Of a stretch of DNA of 27,720 bases, positions 2,745 to 21,031 are shown piece by piece. The stretch is taken from IMG/VR virus record IMGVR_UViG_3300036780_000034, positions 1 to 27,720 of that record; one strand, given 5' to 3'. Numbering within the stretch: position 1 is the first letter of the stretch; each line of letters begins with the position of its first letter. This DNA is from a virus. The notes under the pieces are model-generated. The model did no database searches. It was given only the letters and a program-made list of their open reading frames with translations, and had not been told where the DNA came from. The position numbers and the translations under genes are program-made.

Positions 2745-5186
2745 ATGATGATGAAGTTCTTTGTCCCGATCGCCAAGGTCGATGCCGAGCGCCGGGAAGT
2801 CTGGGGCTACGCCTCGACCGAGGCGCGCGACGACCAGGGCGAGGTCATCAAGCGCGACGCCCTCCAGGCCGCCTTGGGCGACTACATGCAATTCGCCAAT
2901 ATCCGCGAAATGCACCAGCTCTCGGCGGTCGGCACAGCCAAAGAAGCCGCAGTCGATGACAAGGGCCTTTATGTCGGGGCAAAGATCGTCGACCCGCTCG
3001 CTTGGGAGAAAGTCGTCGAGGGCGTCTACAAGGGCTATTCGATCGGTGGCCGTGTGACGCAGCGTGACCCGCATGACTACAAGACGATTACCGGGCTGGT
3101 GCTGAACGAGATCTCATTGGTCGATCGCCCGGCCAATCCCGAGGCTGTGTTCGACTATTGGAAGGCGGCCGGCACTGGCCCCGCCGGGGAGCTCGCGGAG
3201 AAAAGCATGTCCGATCCCTTCAACGCGCCGTTTCAAATCTGGGCCTGCGGCGACCCGGCGCATCGCCACATCGCCAAGGCGGACGCGATCAAATGCGTCG
3301 AGAGTGCTGCCGCGAAGGCCGCAGGCGCGACCGCGGCGGAAGCAGCGGCGGCAGTTGCAGCCCCGGTCCTCGACGCGCTCGCTAAGGCCGAGGCAGCTGC
3401 GGTCGCGGCCAAGGGCGGCGATGACCCGGGCGACGGCAAGAAGCCCTATGGCAACGTCGAATACGCGGACCCTGGGCTGCAGTCGGATGGCAAAAAGCGC
3501 TACCCGATCGACAGCGAGAAGCACATCCGCGCCGCCTGGAATTACATCAACAAGCCGAAGAACGCGAAGAAGTATTCGGCCGCGGACCTCGACAAGGTAA
3601 AGGCCAAGATCGTCGCGGCGTGGAAGGCGAAGATCGACAAGGACGGACCGCCCTCCGCCGACGACAAGGAAAAGGCCGCGGGAAGCGGCATGCTGAAGGC
3701 GCTCTGGGATGTCGGCCATGTCGCGCACATCATCCTCGACCTCGATTGGCTCCAGGGGGCGCTTGAAGTCGAAGCCGCGATGGAGGGGGACGAGTCGCCC
3801 CAGCCGGCGCGGCTGCAGGCGATTGTCGGCGAGCTCTGCGGCTTTCTGAACGCGCTTGTCGCCGAGGAAACCGCGGAGGTGCTCGAGGACACCGAAGTGT
3901 CGCCGGGTGCGATGGCAATGGCGCCGATGGCGATGGCCTCCCATGCGCCCTTCGGCAAGGGGCTGATGGCGGCGCTCGACGGCCTGATCGCAGCCTCCGC
4001 GCAATCGGCCGGGGCAGCCTCGCAAGACGGCGTCGCCGCCAAGGCGCGAGCCGACGCTGAGCGCTACCAGAAATTCAAGGCCGATTTGGCGGAAGCGATG
4101 GTCGCCAGCAGCGGGGCGCTGGGCAAGGCTGGTGCCAAGCACTCGGCCCACGATCAGGCATTGCTCGATCTCGGCTATCACGCCTGCGCCAAATGCGCCG
4201 GGATGGACGGGCTCGGCGAGGCCGCCAAAGGCCACATGGACGAGGCGGCGAAATGCTTCAAAGCAGCCGGGGCCGGTGAAGCCGCCGCAGTCGACGCGGC
4301 CGCGATGCATTCGGGAACGACCGACAGCGAGGCCGGGGTCAAGTCCGGCGACGGCAATACCGCCGTGCCGCAGTCGCATCCGCCCGCCCCCGAATATCAC
4401 GGGCAGAACGCGACGGTCGACACCCGCGACAACCCGGAGAGCAAGCCGCCGATGGTCGACCCGGCCGGGACCGGTGCCGGATCGCACATCGACCAGGTGA
4501 AGGCGGCGCTTTTCGCCGGCATCGACGCCATCCTCAAGCGCAACGGCGGCCATCAGGCGCTGATGGATGCAGCGCACGATTGCTGCGCCAAGGTCAGCGG
4601 CGGGATGACCTGCGGCTCAGCCGAAAAGGCGGGTGCCCGGCATTCGGCCGAGACGATGAGCCACCTCCACAAGGCGCACGAGCACCTGATGATGGCGGGC
4701 GCCACCTGCGACAAGGCCGCGAACGCGGTTCCCGGCGGCACGCCAAACGCCAAGGGCGAAACCGAGGGCCAGGGCACTGAATTCGAGGCCGGCAAGGCCG
4801 CCGGCACGGCGGATTTGACGAAAGTCGCGGCCGAGCGGGATGCGCTCGCCAAAGCGATCAACGACATGGCGCCGCGGATCGATGCCTTGATCAAGCAGGG
4901 CGACGCCGATCGCGCCGAGCGTGATCAGCTCAAAAAGCGGGTCGAGGAGATCGAAAAGCAGCCGCTGCCGCCCAAGACCGTCATCAGCGAAGAGGCCCTC
5001 GCCGAACTCGGGTTGCGCGCCATCGCCAAGGGCGGCACGGCCAAGACGGCCGACGCGGAGATTTCCGACGATGACCTTGCAAAGGCTTGGGCCAACAAGA
5101 CCGAGGAAGAGCGGAGCCTCTTTCTGATCAAAGCCGCCCAAAGACGCCCGATGGCGGTTCCCGGATCGGGGACGCGCCTTTCGTAA
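2745..5186 (+). CDS. Prohead protease (XkdF-like) / scaffold fusion protein
   Basis: Three consecutive ATGs (2745, 2748, 2751) follow GGAG at 2738-2741; spacing favours the second or third. Residues 1-140 resemble XkdF-like/prohead serine proteases (WGYAST, MHQLS, GYSIGG, LNEISLVDRPANPEA), with His57 and Ser99 as the likely catalytic pair. Residues 234-290 form a DUF6582-like module (PYGNVEYADPG, KKRYPIDSEKHIRAAWNYIN). Alanine-rich helices follow, with two similar His/Cys-containing segments near residues 465-500 (AKHSAHD...HACAKC) and 630-660 (ARHSAET...HEHLMMAGATC). A coiled coil near 694-740 and an acidic C-terminus complete it. Protease plus long helical tail directly before the capsid gene fits a maturation protease fused to a scaffold that is cleaved away during head assembly. 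The protease assignment is good; the roles of the repeats are unknown. Confidence 0.82.
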   Translation: MMMKFFVPIAKVDAERREVWGYASTEARDDQGEVIKRDALQAALGDYMQFANIREMHQLSAVGTAKEAAVDDKGLYVGAKIVDPLAWEKVVEGVYKGYSIGGRVTQRDPHDYKTITGLVLNEISLVDRPANPEAVFDYWKAAGTGPAGELAEKSMSDPFNAPFQIWACGDPAHRHIAKADAIKCVESAAAKAAGATAAEAAAAVAAPVLDALAKAEAAAVAAKGGDDPGDGKKPYGNVEYADPGLQSDGKKRYPIDSEKHIRAAWNYINKPKNAKKYSAADLDKVKAKIVAAWKAKIDKDGPPSADDKEKAAGSGMLKALWDVGHVAHIILDLDWLQGALEVEAAMEGDESPQPARLQAIVGELCGFLNALVAEETAEVLEDTEVSPGAMAMAPMAMASHAPFGKGLMAALDGLIAASAQSAGAASQDGVAAKARADAERYQKFKADLAEAMVASSGALGKAGAKHSAHDQALLDLGYHACAKCAGMDGLGEAAKGHMDEAAKCFKAAGAGEAAAVDAAAMHSGTTDSEAGVKSGDGNTAVPQSHPPAPEYHGQNATVDTRDNPESKPPMVDPAGTGAGSHIDQVKAALFAGIDAILKRNGGHQALMDAAHDCCAKVSGGMTCGSAEKAGARHSAETMSHLHKAHEHLMMAGATCDKAANAVPGGTPNAKGETEGQGTEFEAGKAAGTADLTKVAAERDALAKAINDMAPRIDALIKQGDADRAERDQLKKRVEEIEKQPLPPKTVISEEALAELGLRAIAKGGTAKTADAEISDDDLAKAWANKTEEERSLFLIKAAQRRPMAVPGSGTRLS

Positions 5187-15890: not shown

Positions 15891-16193
15891 ATGCCATTCG
15901 CTCCCGTCGATGGAAAGAACTTCTCCGAGGTCGCCCAGGGGCTCGAACACTATCTGAGCCTTCTGGAAAAGGCCGCGCAGGTCCTACCGGAGTTTAACGG
16001 GTGGGACTTCGCGCACTACCGTGCTGCCGCCGTCACGATGGTTGGCGAAGCATCCGACAGTGCCTACGAGGACCTGCATGGCCTGCTAGACGCCAAGCTG
16101 GACGAGCGGCTGAAGCACGTCGAGCTGATCCTCGGCCGAATGGATGAGCAGATCCAGGCTTTGGGCGGCCCCGCCGCATCAAGATCCCCGTAA
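15891..16193 (+). CDS. Small accessory protein, 100 aa, helical
   Basis: ATG 15891 starts 2 nt after the previous stop, with GGAG at 15878-15881. The product is almost all helix: FSEVAQGLEHYLSLLEKAAQVL, then DFAHYRAAAVTMVGEA, then KLDERLKHVELILGRMDEQIQALGG, which looks like a coiled coil. It has no signal or membrane segment. The stop codon lies in the loop of a small GC stem. With the gene at 15637 it forms a two-gene insert between DUF2460 and DUF2163. Function unknown. Confidence 0.62.
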   Translation: MPFAPVDGKNFSEVAQGLEHYLSLLEKAAQVLPEFNGWDFAHYRAAAVTMVGEASDSAYEDLHGLLDAKLDERLKHVELILGRMDEQIQALGGPAASRSP

Positions 16194-16202
16194 GGGGCTT
16201 TT
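16186..16202 (+). terminator. Weak terminator-like stem with GNRA loop
   Basis: CCCC (16186-16189), loop GTAA, GGGG (16194-16197), then CTTTTC. The stem is only 4 bp but a GUAA tetraloop is unusually stable. It closes the two-gene accessory insert and lies 17 nt before the DUF2163 start. Confidence 0.35.
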
Positions 16203-16218
16203 CGTTGCCCGCAGCCGA

Positions 16219-17079
16219 ATGAAGCCAGCTTCATCGGCGCTGATCGCGCTGCTCAATTCCGGGCAGGCGTTTCAGATGGCCGACCTATACACCTTCACGC
16301 TCTCCGGCGGGACGGTGCTGCGCTACTCGGGTGCGATGACGCCGGTCGTCGACACCTCGACCGGGCGCATCTTTGTCCTTGGCCCCAAATTCGAGCGCGC
16401 GCTGATCAACACCGTCGTCGGGGTGCAGGTCGACCAGCTCGACGTCAAGATCTACCCGGAGACGACGGACCTGATCGGCACGATCCCGTTTTTGCAGGCG
16501 GCATGGACCGGCCAACTCGACGGCGCCTTGCTGCAGATCGAGCGCGCGTTCTTTGCCGGCAGCTGGGGCAACACGACGCCCGGAACCGCGGTGCTGTTCG
16601 CCGGCCGGGTGTCCGACCTCGACTGCTCGCGCTCCGGCATCGACATGAAGTGCGCCTCGCATCTCGAATTGCTGAACATCCCGATGCCGCGGCGGCTCTA
16701 CCAAGCGGCGTGCAGCCACGTATTCGGCGACGCGATGTGCCAGTTCAACCGGGCGAGCCTGGCGCTGACCTTCTCGGCCGCCGCCAATTCCTCGCAAACC
16801 ACGATTTTGGGCGTGCCCTCGACGACCTCGCCCTTTCTGCAAGGCTCGATCGTCGGCGTGTCGGGTGCCAATGCCGGGCAGACGCGCACGATCTACGGCT
16901 TCCTCGCGGGCAGCTCGGTGACGGTTAAGCTCGCCTTTCTGTCGCCGGTCAGCGCGGGCGATCAGTTTCAGCTCTTGCCGGGGTGCGACCACACGCTTGC
17001 GACCTGCGACGGCACCTTCAACAACAAGATCCATTTCGGCGGGATGCCCTTTATCCCGACGCCTGAGACGGCAATCTGA
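16219..17079 (+). CDS. DUF2163 / phage BR0599 tail-tip protein (GTA gene 13-like)
   Basis: ATG 16219 (MKPASSALIALLNSGQAFQMADLY) is preferred to the in-frame upstream ATG 16144, which would overlap the previous gene. The 286-aa product has the DUF2163 beginning (YTFTLSGGTVLRYSGAMTPV, VGVQVDQLDVKIYPE, LDGALLQIERAFFAG, GRVSDLDCSRSGIDMK). The C-terminal BR0599 motif has C165-S-H-V-F-G-D-A-M-C174 and a final HTLATCDGTFNNKIHFGGMPFIP. In GTAs this protein forms a baseplate ring joined to the distal tail and to the hub, and the cysteines bind a metal cluster in homologues. The next gene starts one base after its stop. Confidence 0.85.
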   Translation: MKPASSALIALLNSGQAFQMADLYTFTLSGGTVLRYSGAMTPVVDTSTGRIFVLGPKFERALINTVVGVQVDQLDVKIYPETTDLIGTIPFLQAAWTGQLDGALLQIERAFFAGSWGNTTPGTAVLFAGRVSDLDCSRSGIDMKCASHLELLNIPMPRRLYQAACSHVFGDAMCQFNRASLALTFSAAANSSQTTILGVPSTTSPFLQGSIVGVSGANAGQTRTIYGFLAGSSVTVKLAFLSPVSAGDQFQLLPGCDHTLATCDGTFNNKIHFGGMPFIPTPETAI

Positions 17080-17080
17080 G

Positions 17081-17473
17081 GTGATCCTCGCCAACGGCAC
17101 GGTCATTGAACCGTGCGCAGAGGGTAGCCGGATCGTTCTGCCGTCGGGAGAAGTCGTCGAGGGGCGCCCGCACGCGACGGATGCCTATCGCGCGACTGCG
17201 GCGCGGCTCGGCTACGGCCCCGACACCCTGGCAATGTGCCGCGACCACGATCCGCTGCACGCGCGGCTCTGCGACTGGCTCGGCCTACTGGACAGCTTCG
17301 CGTTGCGCGACGCCGCGGGACTGCTCGACCCGAAGGAGCAAGCATTGGCGCTTCTCGAAGAGGAGGCGGTGCTGGCCCTGCAGAAGTTCATCCGCGCTTT
17401 GGATTTTCGGCGCGCTGGGTGCCGAATTTTCGGAGGCATCGATCCTCCACCAATCAAAGGTAGCATTCCATGA
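17081..17473 (+). CDS. Conserved hypothetical tail-region protein, about 130 aa
   Basis: GTG 17081 is the likely start: it is one base after the DUF2163 stop, and conserved-looking sequence begins there (ILANGTVIEPCAEGSRIVLPS). An in-frame start at 16997 would overlap the upstream gene. The rest reads HATDAYRATAARLGYGPDTLAM, HDPLHARLCDWLGL and a helix DPKEQALALLEEEAVLALQKFIRAL. The early part is beta, the later part helical. I do not recognise the family. Tight spacing on both sides (ATGA overlap with the lipoprotein gene) supports a real gene co-expressed with the tail tip. Confidence 0.65.
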   Translation: MILANGTVIEPCAEGSRIVLPSGEVVEGRPHATDAYRATAARLGYGPDTLAMCRDHDPLHARLCDWLGLLDSFALRDAAGLLDPKEQALALLEEEAVLALQKFIRALDFRRAGCRIFGGIDPPPIKGSIP

Positions 17474-17820
17474 ATCGCACAATCAAATCGGCGGCGCTCG
17501 TCGCAGTGCTTGCGGCAGGCGGTCTCGGTCTCGCCGGGTGTAGCGGCCTGTCGGGCATTTTGGGCGGTGCCGCAGCTGGCGCTGGCACCGCAGCCGGCGG
17601 CAATGCCACGGTCCAGCAGGCCTGCGTCGCCGCACAACCCGTCCTGACCGCCGGGGCCATGTCGACCAATTCGACCGCCACGAACATTGCTTCCTACGGG
17701 AACGCGTTCTGCGGCCCGGTCCTCGCCGGAACGATGCCGGCCACGACCGATTCCAATTCGGCGAGCTGGGTCCTGGGGCTGGTGCAAACCTTGTCGCCGC
17801 TGCTGCTCGCGGCGCTCTAA
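17470..17820 (+). CDS. Small lipoprotein, 116 aa
   Basis: ATG 17470 overlaps the previous stop (ATGA). The N-terminus MNRTIKSAALVAVLAAGG leads to lipobox L21-A-G-C24 with Ser at +2, predicting outer-membrane sorting. The mature part is Gly/Ala-rich (GLSGILGGAAAGAGTAAGG), has two more Cys (QQACVAAQPV and AFCGPVL), and ends with a hydrophobic helix VLGLVQTLSPLLLAAL. It might be an envelope protein made by lysogens, a superinfection-exclusion lipoprotein or an outer spanin-like component; nothing in the sequence decides. It precedes the sulfotransferase-like gene by 18 nt. Confidence 0.72.
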   Translation: MNRTIKSAALVAVLAAGGLGLAGCSGLSGILGGAAAGAGTAAGGNATVQQACVAAQPVLTAGAMSTNSTATNIASYGNAFCGPVLAGTMPATTDSNSASWVLGLVQTLSPLLLAAL

Positions 17821-17838: not shown

Positions 17839-18573
17839 TTGGGGGCTCAATTGCCGCCGTTTATCATCTGGTGCCGCCAGCGCACCGGCTCGATCAGTCT
17901 CTACAAAGGCCTGACGGCGGCGGTCAGGGATCACCCAGCGGCGCAACTAGAACCGTTCGATTATGACGCCGAGGGCCCGCGCCAGTTCGCCTCCGCCGCC
18001 TTCCACGCCGATCCAGGCCATGCCGCGGCAAGGGTAATCTGCGCGGAGGGCTGGCTGCTCAAGCACGTTTACGAGCCGTCAAAGCGCTTTGGCGAATGCG
18101 ACGAGCAGATTCCGGTCGGATTCCATCTAGCACTCGCCCAGGCTACATCAGCGCACGGCTACAGGCACATCCACCTCTATCGCAGAGACCGGCTGGCGCG
18201 GCTGGTCAGCAAGGGGTTGGCCGAGCAGCTCGGGACGTGGTTTCCGGGCGGCTGGGTCGACGACATCTTCGCTGACATCAAGTCCGGGCGGCGAAAGATC
18301 GAGCCATTGGATGCTGAGCGGCTGATCCGCTGGGATCGCGAGGCGGATGACCTGTGGCGGCACATTGGGCCGCAAGTCAGTGCCCTACATATCGCGGCAG
18401 AGGACGTGTTCGGGCCGCATCGCCTCGATCATCTGCAAGAGATCGCGGACTTTCTCGGCATCGCCAGCGTCCATTCGATTGCCTCTCATCTCGGCCGCGG
18501 CCAAGACAGCCAGCGGGTCCAGGATTTCGTGCCGAACCTCGACGAATTGCGCTGCGCTGTGGAGGCTTATTGA
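17839..18573 (+). CDS. Sulfotransferase-like protein
   Basis: TTG 17839 gives 244 aa; TTG 17851 is another possible start, and the ribosome site is weak. The N-terminus FIIWCRQRTGSISLYKGL carries R15-T-G-S-x-x-L21, matching the 5'-phosphosulfate loop of PAPS-dependent sulfotransferases. An EPFDYD element follows. Further on, HIHLYRRDRLARLVSKGLAEQLGTW has R116-D-x-x-x-R121-x-x-S124, matching the 3'-phosphate-binding motif of Stf0/NodH-type enzymes. The rest is helical, ending QEIADFLGIASVHSI, a typical C-terminal helix of this group. The expected reaction is transfer of sulfate from PAPS to a carbohydrate or other acceptor in the cytoplasm. Its stop overlaps the glycosyltransferase start (TGATG). 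The family call rests on the two motifs; the acceptor is unknown. Confidence 0.7.
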   Translation: MGAQLPPFIIWCRQRTGSISLYKGLTAAVRDHPAAQLEPFDYDAEGPRQFASAAFHADPGHAAARVICAEGWLLKHVYEPSKRFGECDEQIPVGFHLALAQATSAHGYRHIHLYRRDRLARLVSKGLAEQLGTWFPGGWVDDIFADIKSGRRKIEPLDAERLIRWDREADDLWRHIGPQVSALHIAAEDVFGPHRLDHLQEIADFLGIASVHSIASHLGRGQDSQRVQDFVPNLDELRCAVEAY

Positions 18574-19688
18574 TGGCACCGCCGCTGGACTTCGCGGACG
18601 AAGGCCCCACCGCGCGCCGACCGCACCTGATCGCGCCGACGCTCGCCAGCGCGCATGCCGTACTGATCTCCGAGCGGATGGGCGACCCTCTGCCGGGCGG
18701 CAGCGATGCGGGCTTGGCGGTGACGGTCAATGCCAACGCGCGGGTATTGCGCCGCGCTGGCGTGCATGCCGAGACGTGGAAGGTCAAAAACGCCGACGAG
18801 CTGATGGCGCGCATTTCCAGCGTGATGCCGGGAGCAGCCCGACCGATCACGCATGTCGTCATCAACAACCCGCGGTTTATCCTGCCGATTTCCTATGCCG
18901 AGATGGCGGGCAAGTGGCCCGATATCGAGTTCGTGCAGCTCAACCACTCGGGCCAGTCGTATCTGTCGATCGACCATCACGGGATTCAGAACATCCGCGG
19001 CGTCGCCGACCTCGAAACAGCGCTGCACAATGTCCGGGTCGCCGGCAACAACCCCCGCTTCCGCCACTGGCTCAATGACGATTACGGGATATCGAGCCTG
19101 CTGTTGCCAAACCTCTATGACGTGGAGACCTTTCGCAACCCCGTCACGGTACGGCGCTGCCCGGACCCGCTGCGCATCGGCAGCTTCGGCGCCGGCCGCT
19201 ATCACAAAAATCAGCTCGTCGCCGCTCAGGGTGCGATTGGTCTTGCGCGCCGGCTGGGGGCCAATCTCGAACTCTACGTCAACTCCGGGCATTGGGACAC
19301 GACCGGGCCGCTTGATCAAAGCCGGGCAGAATTGTTTGCGGGTTTGCCAAATGCCCGACTGATCCCGGTGCCGTGGGCCGCATGGCCGCGGTTTCGCCGC
19401 ACCGTCGCGTCGATGGACCTGATGATGTCGCCCTCCTTTGACGAGACGTTCTGCGTCATCTGCGCTGATGGGATCGCTGAGGGTGTGCCGAGCGTCGTCG
19501 GGCCGGCTCTCGAATGGACGCCGCGTTCGTGGCAGGCCGAACCGCATGACCCCGCCTCGGTGGCGCGCGTCGGGCTTGGGCTGCTCCACGACGTAGCGGG
19601 TGCTGTCCATGACGGTCGCGCGGCACTGAAAGCCTATGTCGCGGCCGGGACCCGCCTGTGGCTCGATTATCTGACGGGGTCTCCCTGA
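18573..19688 (+). CDS. GT-B glycosyltransferase (GT4-like)
   Basis: ATG 18573 overlaps the sulfotransferase stop as TGATG and has GGAGG about 9 nt upstream. The 371-aa product has a Rossmann-like N-terminal half (AHAVLISERMGDPLPGG, THVVINNPRFILPI, IEFVQLNHSG). Its C-terminal half has LRIGSFGAGRYHKNQLVAAQGA, LELYVNSGHW and SPSFDETFCVICADGIAEGVPSVVG. The last matches the GT-B donor-site element, with Glu291 and an Asp at the usual second Glu position (E-x7-D). It probably transfers a sugar from a nucleotide-sugar donor in the cytoplasm. Coupling with the sulfotransferase suggests the two modify one acceptor, for example a tail protein or host surface polysaccharide. Fold confidence is good; the donor and acceptor are unknown. 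Confidence 0.78.
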   Translation: MAPPLDFADEGPTARRPHLIAPTLASAHAVLISERMGDPLPGGSDAGLAVTVNANARVLRRAGVHAETWKVKNADELMARISSVMPGAARPITHVVINNPRFILPISYAEMAGKWPDIEFVQLNHSGQSYLSIDHHGIQNIRGVADLETALHNVRVAGNNPRFRHWLNDDYGISSLLLPNLYDVETFRNPVTVRRCPDPLRIGSFGAGRYHKNQLVAAQGAIGLARRLGANLELYVNSGHWDTTGPLDQSRAELFAGLPNARLIPVPWAAWPRFRRTVASMDLMMSPSFDETFCVICADGIAEGVPSVVGPALEWTPRSWQAEPHDPASVARVGLGLLHDVAGAVHDGRAALKAYVAAGTRLWLDYLTGSP

Positions 19689-19716
19689 GTTGCCGCGTCA
19701 GTCGGCTCAATTTTCG

Positions 19717-19732
19717 CAGCTATATAGCTGCT
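19717..19732. repeat. Perfect 16-bp palindrome between glycosyltransferase and HExxE genes
   Basis: GCAGCTATATAGCTGC is a perfect palindrome in the 71-nt gap. Flanking ATTTTCG and CTCGAAAT extend it imperfectly to about 30 nt. The AT-rich centre stands out in this GC-rich DNA. It could be an operator, a -10 region or a recombination scar; no matching -35 is seen. Confidence 0.55.
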
Positions 19733-19759: not shown

Positions 19760-20506
19760 ATGACGAAAGTTGTCCTTGTCAATCAGACGAGAAGCGTCCT
19801 GACCGATGACGAAGTCGCGGCGGTTGTGCCGGTGCTGCAAACGCTGTTCGACCGCGATTTCGAGCCGGTCTGGGGCACGGCGCTTGCCGTGCGGGTGAGC
19901 TCGATCCCGACCGGCGCCGAGGTGCCCATCGATTGCTGGCCGATCTACCTTCAGGACACGACCGATCAGCCCGGCGCTGGCGGGTATCACGAGGATCAGG
20001 GCCTCCCGTTTGGCAAGGTGTTCGCCCGCGACGCGATGGAAGCAAATGAATCCTGGACCGTCGACCTGACGCACGAATTCCTCGAAATGTGCGGCGACCC
20101 GACGACCCAGGTCCTGATCGACCTGCCGCAGATGGCGGGCTTTGCCTGTCTCCGCGAGGTAGGCGATGCCGTCGAAGAAGACACGCTCGGCTACCAGATC
20201 GACGGCGTTCTCGTCACGGACTGGTGCACGCCGGAGTATTTCTACCAGAAGCCTGCCGATGGTGGCCCGATCGTACCGCGTCCCGGTACAAGGCTTGCCG
20301 GCCTGACTCCGCGTGGTCTGTACGACTTCATGGGGCACATCAACGCCCCGGCCCCCGCGCTGCTGCATGGCGGCTATCTCGGGATCAGATACCCTGATGG
20401 CGAATGGGGATCGGTCAATATGTTCAAGCGCGACGGCCGGCAAAGCCGCCGGTCGATGCGGACGCACGGCCGGCTGAACCGGAAGGCCGCGGGTTCGCTC
20501 CGATAA
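19760..20506 (+). CDS. Protein with HExxE motif, possible metal-dependent enzyme
   Basis: ATG 19760 has AGGAGA at 19744-19749, a strong ribosome site; in-frame starts further upstream would overlap the glycosyltransferase. The 248-aa product starts TKVVLVNQTRSVLTDDEV, then VPIDCWPIYLQD, GYHEDQGLPFGKVFA, and WTVDLTHEFLEMCGDP. The H105-E-F-L-E109 sequence inside a helix resembles zinc-binding helices of metallopeptidases, though the usual second His is absent. Later come VTDWCTPEYFYQ and GYLGIRYPDGEWGSVNMF; the C-terminus is very basic (RQSRRSMRTHGRLNRKA), perhaps a nucleic-acid or surface contact. A structural protein that kept an enzyme-like fold is the main alternative. Confidence 0.6.
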   Translation: MTKVVLVNQTRSVLTDDEVAAVVPVLQTLFDRDFEPVWGTALAVRVSSIPTGAEVPIDCWPIYLQDTTDQPGAGGYHEDQGLPFGKVFARDAMEANESWTVDLTHEFLEMCGDPTTQVLIDLPQMAGFACLREVGDAVEEDTLGYQIDGVLVTDWCTPEYFYQKPADGGPIVPRPGTRLAGLTPRGLYDFMGHINAPAPALLHGGYLGIRYPDGEWGSVNMFKRDGRQSRRSMRTHGRLNRKAAGSLR

Positions 20507-20566: not shown

Positions 20567-21031
20567 ATGGAATCCCATTGTTTTGATCCGCGCCGCGCCG
20601 CGGTCGTCGCTGAGGCGCACGACTGGCTGCGGACCCCTTATCACCATATGGGGCGCGTCAAGGGAGCGGGCACCGACTGCCTGACCTTCCTCGCCGAGGT
20701 CTATGAGCGCGCCGGTGTATTGCCGCATCTCGAGATCGCATTCTACCCGCCGGACTGGCACCTGCACCGCGGCGAGGAGCGCTATCTCGATGGGCTTCTC
20801 GGCTACGCCCGCGAGATCGAGGGGCCGCCGCAGCCAGGCGACATCGCGATGTGGCGCTACGGCCGCTGTTTTGCCCATGCGGCGATCGTCGTCGCCTGGC
20901 CGCAGATCATCCATGCCGCCGCCGAACTGCGGATGGTGTCGCTGGGCGATGCGAGCCAGGGCCAGCTTGCGCGCCGCGCGGTGCGGTTCTTCGACCCGTT
21001 TATTGCTGCTGAACGTCAGCCGGTAAACTGA
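20567..21031 (+). CDS. NlpC/P60 family cell-wall peptidase (GTA gene 14-like)
   Basis: ATG 20567 begins MESHCFDPRRAAVVAEAHDWL; the ribosome site is weak. The 154-aa product has TPYHHMGRVKGAGTDCLTF with catalytic Cys38, and FAHAAIVV with His104 followed by a second polar residue near His116. This is the Cys-His arrangement of NlpC/P60 peptidases. GTA gene 14 and related phage proteins of this family sit at the tail tip and cut peptidoglycan cross-links during DNA entry. It directly precedes the tail hub gene, as in GTAs. The 60-nt gap before it holds no gene I can support. Confidence 0.85.
   Translation: MESHCFDPRRAAVVAEAHDWLRTPYHHMGRVKGAGTDCLTFLAEVYERAGVLPHLEIAFYPPDWHLHRGEERYLDGLLGYAREIEGPPQPGDIAMWRYGRCFAHAAIVVAWPQIIHAAAELRMVSLGDASQGQLARRAVRFFDPFIAAERQPVN

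Follow-up and report, generated by a model that had tools for sequence, protein, structure and literature searches.

A co-inherited pair of sulfotransferase-like and glycosyltransferase genes in otherwise dissimilar phages: a candidate glycan-tailoring cassette

Why would a phage carry a sulfotransferase-like gene and a glycosyltransferase gene side by side among its tail-tip genes? Scattered sulfotransferases are known in marine phages, and their role in phage genomes has been stated to be unclear (PMC10580990). Here we report an analysis of such a pair, designated ST and GT, in a virus record from IMG/VR (27,720 bases; the window), including its predicted protein structures, its occurrence in other phages and the candidate acceptors of its products.

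The gene pair and its setting in the window

The pair lies between a DUF2163 gene and an NlpC/P60-like gene, as an initial sequence-only reading of this DNA had stated, and the genes of this slot and its borders are as follows (all on the plus strand).

16144..17079, plus strand: DUF2163/phiJL001 Gp84-type tail protein, the left border of the slot (Pfam PF09931, 2.9e-28; PF09356, 4e-18).
17081..17473, plus strand: small ORF in the slot, with no Pfam match and an ATGA overlap with the next gene.
17470..17820, plus strand: small predicted lipoprotein in the slot, with a signal peptide and a cysteine in its sequence and no strong family match.
17839..18573, plus strand: ST, Stf0-like putative PAPS-dependent sulfotransferase of 244 aa; the true start is possibly 17851.
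18561..18575, plus strand: overlap TGATG of the ST stop and the GT start, with GGAGG in front.
18573..19688, plus strand: GT, predicted GT4-type GT-B glycosyltransferase of 371 aa (AlphaFold2 model and Pfam family matches).
19760..20506, plus strand: 248-aa protein with a HEFLEMCGD stretch, the last slot gene, with no match in Pfam and none in phages.
20567..21031, plus strand: NlpC/P60-like tail peptidase, the right border of the slot (PF00877, 1.3e-4; phrog_329 minor tail protein, 1.5e-12).

The PF00877 score of the last protein (22.3) is just below the cut-off of 23, and a gene for an Rcc01698-type tail protein lies downstream of it. The ST/GT junction reads TTATTGATGG, with the TGA stop at 18571-18573, the ATG start at 18573, and GGAGG at 18561-18565 before this ATG. 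The claimed TGATG overlap is therefore present, and both ORFs have a coding-type codon composition (GC3 of 0.75 for ST and 0.79 for GT) like that of the neighboring genes. The GC and GC3 of the pair match those of its neighbors, giving no sign of recent acquisition by base composition, and no sigma-70-like promoter site was found in the ST-GT region. The annotated ST start is the TTG at 17839. Because most ST homologues have the FIIW strand within a few residues of their start, and the alternative TTG at 17851 (M-P-P-FIIW) is preceded by GGGGG, translation may begin at 17851 rather than at 17839.

Other features of the window were recorded in passing. Between GT and the gene after it lies a perfect 16-base palindrome, GCAGCTATATAGCTGC, at 19716-19731 with TTTTC/CGAAA flanks, which is possibly a regulator or processing site. 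The HEFLEMCGDP stretch of the 19760-20506 protein is suggestive of a zincin-like site, and positions 2745-5186 encode a protein of 813 aa that resembles a head-maturation protease at its N-terminus and continues into a long stretch with no assignment.

Predicted folds and cofactor sites of the two proteins

Searched by themselves, neither the window ST nor the window GT gave anything useful in Pfam, NCBIfam, PHROGs or PDB sequence searches; detecting their relationships required profiles and family members, since single-protein queries were insufficient. ST homologues were obtained via back-translated and degenerate-pattern scans, and the resulting alignment of seven phage family members served as AlphaFold2 input. 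The sites discussed below are the following.

17881..17901, plus strand: 5'-PSB loop RTGSISL, ST residues 15-21; R15 is invariant in 10 homologues.
18181..18210, plus strand: 3'-PB motif RRDRLARLVS, ST residues 115-124; 10 homologues show no variation at R115, R121 or S124.
19434..19469, plus strand: GT donor-site motif SFDETFCVICAD, residues 288-299, E-x7-D.

The sulfotransferase fold proposed for ST is borne out by its AlphaFold2 model (pLDDT 88.6, pTM 0.86), for which ranks 1-4 of a Foldseek search against the PDB are chains of Stf0 from Mycobacterium smegmatis, an enzyme of trehalose sulfation (PF09037; PDB 1TEX; best 8e-5), followed by SULT, TPST and Teg14, which are either sulfotransferases or proteins sharing that fold. 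The superposition on Stf0 is moderate by TM-score (0.44-0.52) and has a large rmsd, the sequence identity is about 12-15%, and the ST profile aligned to 1TEX across both cofactor motifs with an E-value of only 0.86. The two proteins share the PSB arginine, the R-to-S spacing of 9 (HRPDVVSQAVS in 1TEX) and a similar A-x-Q-x-x-x-W stretch after the PB serine. The ST residue that we align with the catalytic Glu36 of Stf0 is not conserved, whereas the neighboring E38 is. In Pfam, PF09037 was matched by 3 of the 7 ST family members and PF13469 (Sulfotransfer_3) weakly by two, with a best value of 4e-4; the three phage relatives fall under the PF09037 cut-off, the gathering score of 22 was passed by one full-length plasmid homologue (22.8), and the window ST had no PF09037 match. 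The window ST is Stf0-like, not a Pfam Stf0 member.

Both PAPS signatures read from the sequence are present in ST, and their conservation holds in part: R15, R115, R121 and S124, which make up the functional core, are invariant over ten homologues, as are E38, K75, H76, H110 and W134, whereas G17 and R116, the second R of RRD, vary. Over the homologues the PAPS loop follows the pattern R[ST][GSR][SG], with RTSS in two members and RSRS in one. The motif signal goes beyond chance, because seven divergent homologues keep the key residues, in agreement with the predicted fold. According to a published definition, sulfotransferases have a PSB Lys/Arg in a strand-loop-helix, a PB Ser and a characteristic sheet architecture (PMC11625862). 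In the ST model, R15 lies in the loop after strand 8-12 and is followed by helix 18-28; S124 is on helix 118-131, with R115 nine residues earlier, so that the serine of the 3'-PB helix is present; and the best PDB matches are sulfotransferases, in line with the PAPS-binding beta-sheet architecture. By sequence and predicted structure, ST qualifies as a putative sulfotransferase under this definition. The invariant E38 and H76 are candidates for the catalytic base (His or Glu), and H110 is likewise invariant.

By family, the closest functional relatives of ST are Stf0 and LpsS of Sinorhizobium meliloti, with trehalose and LPS as their substrates. LpsS, an Stf0-family protein of LPS sulfation (PMC12445080), shares with ST the same broad family and acts on a surface glycan; however, it is a cellular gene, and the likeness drawn here is one of family. 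NodH (Sulfotransfer_3, PF13469; PMC11625862) has an RxG-type PSB loop as in ST; the fold ranking, which prefers Stf0, was made among structures other than NodH itself. The partner of Stf0 is trehalose metabolism, whereas that of the window ST is a GT4. Like ST, the sulfotransferases of marine phages (PMC10580990) and the BFVD sulfotransferase entries from Xanthomonas phage FoX4 and Synechococcus phage S-SCSM1, which have low structural similarity to ST, belong to tailed phages, but they are not known to be paired with a dedicated glycosyltransferase.

For GT, the model built with twelve homologues (pLDDT 82.4, with poor quality at residues 1-19 and 37-45) had 291 PDB matches at E<=0.001, the best 50 of 291 being overwhelmingly GT-B glycosyltransferases; TreT, SenB, BshA and PimA, all GT4-type GT-B enzymes, are among the matches. 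Glyco_trans_1_4 of Pfam was matched by 10 of the 12 GT family members (best 2.7e-6), and the phage glycosyltransferases of phrog_2170 by 9 of the 12 (best 5e-6; the window GT only at 0.27). The protein, in which a GT-B donor motif had been noted, reads SFDETFCVICADG; here E291-x7-D299, a conservative change from the GT4 E-x7-E donor motif, is invariant and a candidate donor site. Among the twelve homologues, S288 F D E T F, A298 and D299 are invariant, as are R209, K212 and E291. GT shares the GT-B fold and the G-R-x-x-K and E-x7-[DE] pattern of a putative donor site with the retaining GT4 enzymes TreT, BshA, SenB and PimA, at about 12-16% identity and with the second Glu replaced by Asp. As modeled, GT has the GT-B double Rossmann fold of GT4 type.

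Co-inheritance and mobility of the pair

The coupled pair recurs in other phages, at varied genome positions. Seven other IMG/VR contigs carry the genes in the same ST-to-GT order, and since two of these contigs are near copies they represent six distinct phages, or seven distinct pairs including the window. ST and GT overlap or abut in 5 of the 7 distinct pairs, and a short ORF or spacer separates them in contigs L009/L011 and L020. A separate scan anchored on ST recovered these seven contigs and no others, and no ST without GT. GT-only phages are common; ST was absent from 17 such phage records, which could be incomplete contigs. When 22 GTs were placed in a maximum-likelihood tree, those with an ST partner grouped as a single clade (support 100/100), and therefore the two genes were probably joined in a single event. 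The identities of ST and GT co-vary (Mantel r=0.83, p=0.002), partly driven by one close pair, without which the correlation drops to r=0.54 (p=0.04). ST diverges faster, with a mean identity of 38% versus 53% for GT. No close relatives of either protein were found in phage GenBank searches, a GT-profile scan of genome contigs gave one distant Acidobacteriota match only, and a search of 149 Acidobacteriota genomes for ST, run without a positive control, found none.

Three full-length ST homologues with 26-29% identity are located on Roseobacteraceae plasmids beside glycosyltransferases of ~2,000 residues, with other polysaccharide-type genes nearby in two of the three (a pyruvyl transferase on one plasmid and an acylneuraminate cytidylyltransferase on one); GT had no match on plasmids. 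These plasmid homologues are found near position 7000 in L057-L059, and in L057 a gene for a tail-fiber-domain protein comes after them.

When all ORFs of the window were compared with those of the six distinct partner contigs, ST and GT were the sole shared proteins at E<=1e-5, and searches of the partner contigs for the window tail J and DUF2163 proteins, run without a positive control, had no match. In these contigs the pair comes after tail-spike/fiber genes (L025), or lies near an endolysin (L002) or terminase (L019) gene. As no other detectable protein is shared with the window, the pair is, judging by gene content, mobile cargo rather than a part of the tail tip. Functional membership of the tail tip is at odds with partner phages that have no detectable window tail protein and with the varied positions of the pair. 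A gene for a sedolisin/S53-like protease, perhaps a further cargo partner, occurs downstream of ST-GT in L009 (2790-3821), L020 (7970-9001) and L025 (6105-7130), with 43-84% mutual identity.

The tail proteins of the window have their nearest relatives, at about 32-38% identity, in phages of Acinetobacter, Brevundimonas and Pseudomonas. The rhizobial host suggested by the sequence-only reading was rejected as unsupported. ST-GT is not conserved with the tail cassette, being missing from the slot in backbone relatives and present without a detectable tail-gene match elsewhere. The expectation that DUF2163 and NlpC/P60 genes normally adjoin each other holds for Brevundimonas phage Polewnik and Pseudomonas phage KT1, in which the slot is empty, but not for the closest Acinetobacter relatives, in which it is occupied by a SASA carbohydrate-esterase, an SGNH/GDSL hydrolase or a BNR sialidase-like protein. 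The DUF2163-NlpC slot of Acinetobacter phages is a diversification site, and its proteins appear interchangeable (L046 2729-4555, L047 2798-4951, L048 2171-3925). Since the slot recurrently takes glycan-directed proteins, a glycan role for ST-GT is supported, in keeping with the host-interaction role proposed earlier. The slot proteins of the Acinetobacter relatives are probably virion-bound; ST and GT need not be.

Proposed role and alternative explanations

We propose, at about even confidence, that the pair is a mobile glycan-tailoring cassette in which GT adds a sugar to a host-derived acceptor and ST sulfates the product. GT would transfer the sugar from a host nucleotide-sugar to a glycan acceptor, and ST, encoded just upstream and translationally coupled, would sulfate the resulting glycan with host PAPS. 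Both folds, the conserved cofactor-site residues, one pairing origin and persistence across phages sharing little or no other content are computed results; both enzymes would have to be catalytically active and to act in series on one glycan. That the acceptor is a glycan or glycolipid of host origin, for example surface polysaccharide or a precursor of it in the cytoplasm, is a reading we hold at slightly less than even confidence. The plasmid ST homologues beside giant glycosyltransferases and the glycan-directed proteins in the slot of relatives point toward a host glycan, and the lack of a flippase or membrane protein in the cassette counts against it. An altered host glycan would reduce the binding of other phages, or that of the phage's own progeny on debris.

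Alternatively, the pair may glycosylate and then sulfate the phage's own tail-tip, fiber or other virion protein, altering adsorption or shielding the particle, a serious if somewhat doubtful possibility. In cluster F1 mycobacteriophages, virion glycosylation has been connected with phage-encoded glycosyltransferases (PMC11256854), which provides a precedent. ST and GT run in the same direction as the tail-tip operon around them, and no promoter of their own was recognized there; both look soluble; and the L025 pair follows tail-spike/fiber genes. The tail-operon position also suggests late expression, which leaves little time for remodeling of the host surface and fits virion decoration better. 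However, other contigs have the pair close to endolysin or terminase genes, and no virion protein common to the carriers and the window is detectable, so that each phage would need a different acceptor. As no other shared protein was found at E<=1e-5, it is unlikely that all carriers share one dedicated virion acceptor, and a host-derived acceptor is slightly favored over a phage protein; this absence is at the BLAST level, and distant virion homologues could exist. The neighboring lipoprotein, once suggested as a possible target, has no relative in the other ST-GT loci (E<=1e-4) and is unlikely to be a dedicated substrate.

Two further explanations concern the substrate and the activity of ST. 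Phage DNA glucosyltransferases belong among the GT-B enzymes, the GT4 fold relatives of GT include the small-molecule enzymes TreT, BshA and SenB, and GT often occurs without ST; the two proteins might then be merely co-inherited, acting on a small molecule, a glycolipid used as a signal, or the bases of phage DNA. We consider this improbable in view of the single origin of the pair, the finding of ST with this GT clade alone, the glycosyltransferases adjoining the plasmid ST homologues, and the lack of a recognized base-hypermodification gene among the annotated genes of the 27.7-kb window. It is highly improbable that ST is a catalytically dead sulfotransferase-fold protein supporting GT: its faster divergence, the RTSS and RSRS loop variants and the loss of R116 in some members would agree with such a role, but the PSB Arg, PB Arg and PB Ser are invariant over the 10 homologues including the plasmid ones, and the canonical motifs are complete in the window copy.

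Within the literature searched, which was limited and included few subscription journals, we found no description of a coupled sulfotransferase-glycosyltransferase phage cassette, and nothing on sulfated phage receptors together with sulfotransferases. Phage sulfotransferases are already known; the co-inherited ST-GT cassette appears to be a new arrangement of them. Tied to one GT clade and moving with it as a unit among unrelated phages, ST offers a concrete and testable two-gene system. Our broader and still tentative view is that this once-assembled, horizontally mobile, phage-specific system makes a sulfated glycan during infection, with which unrelated environmental phages would re-code the surface of the host or their own virions. 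If active, ST-GT would add sulfation to the ways in which phages edit glycans in infected cells.
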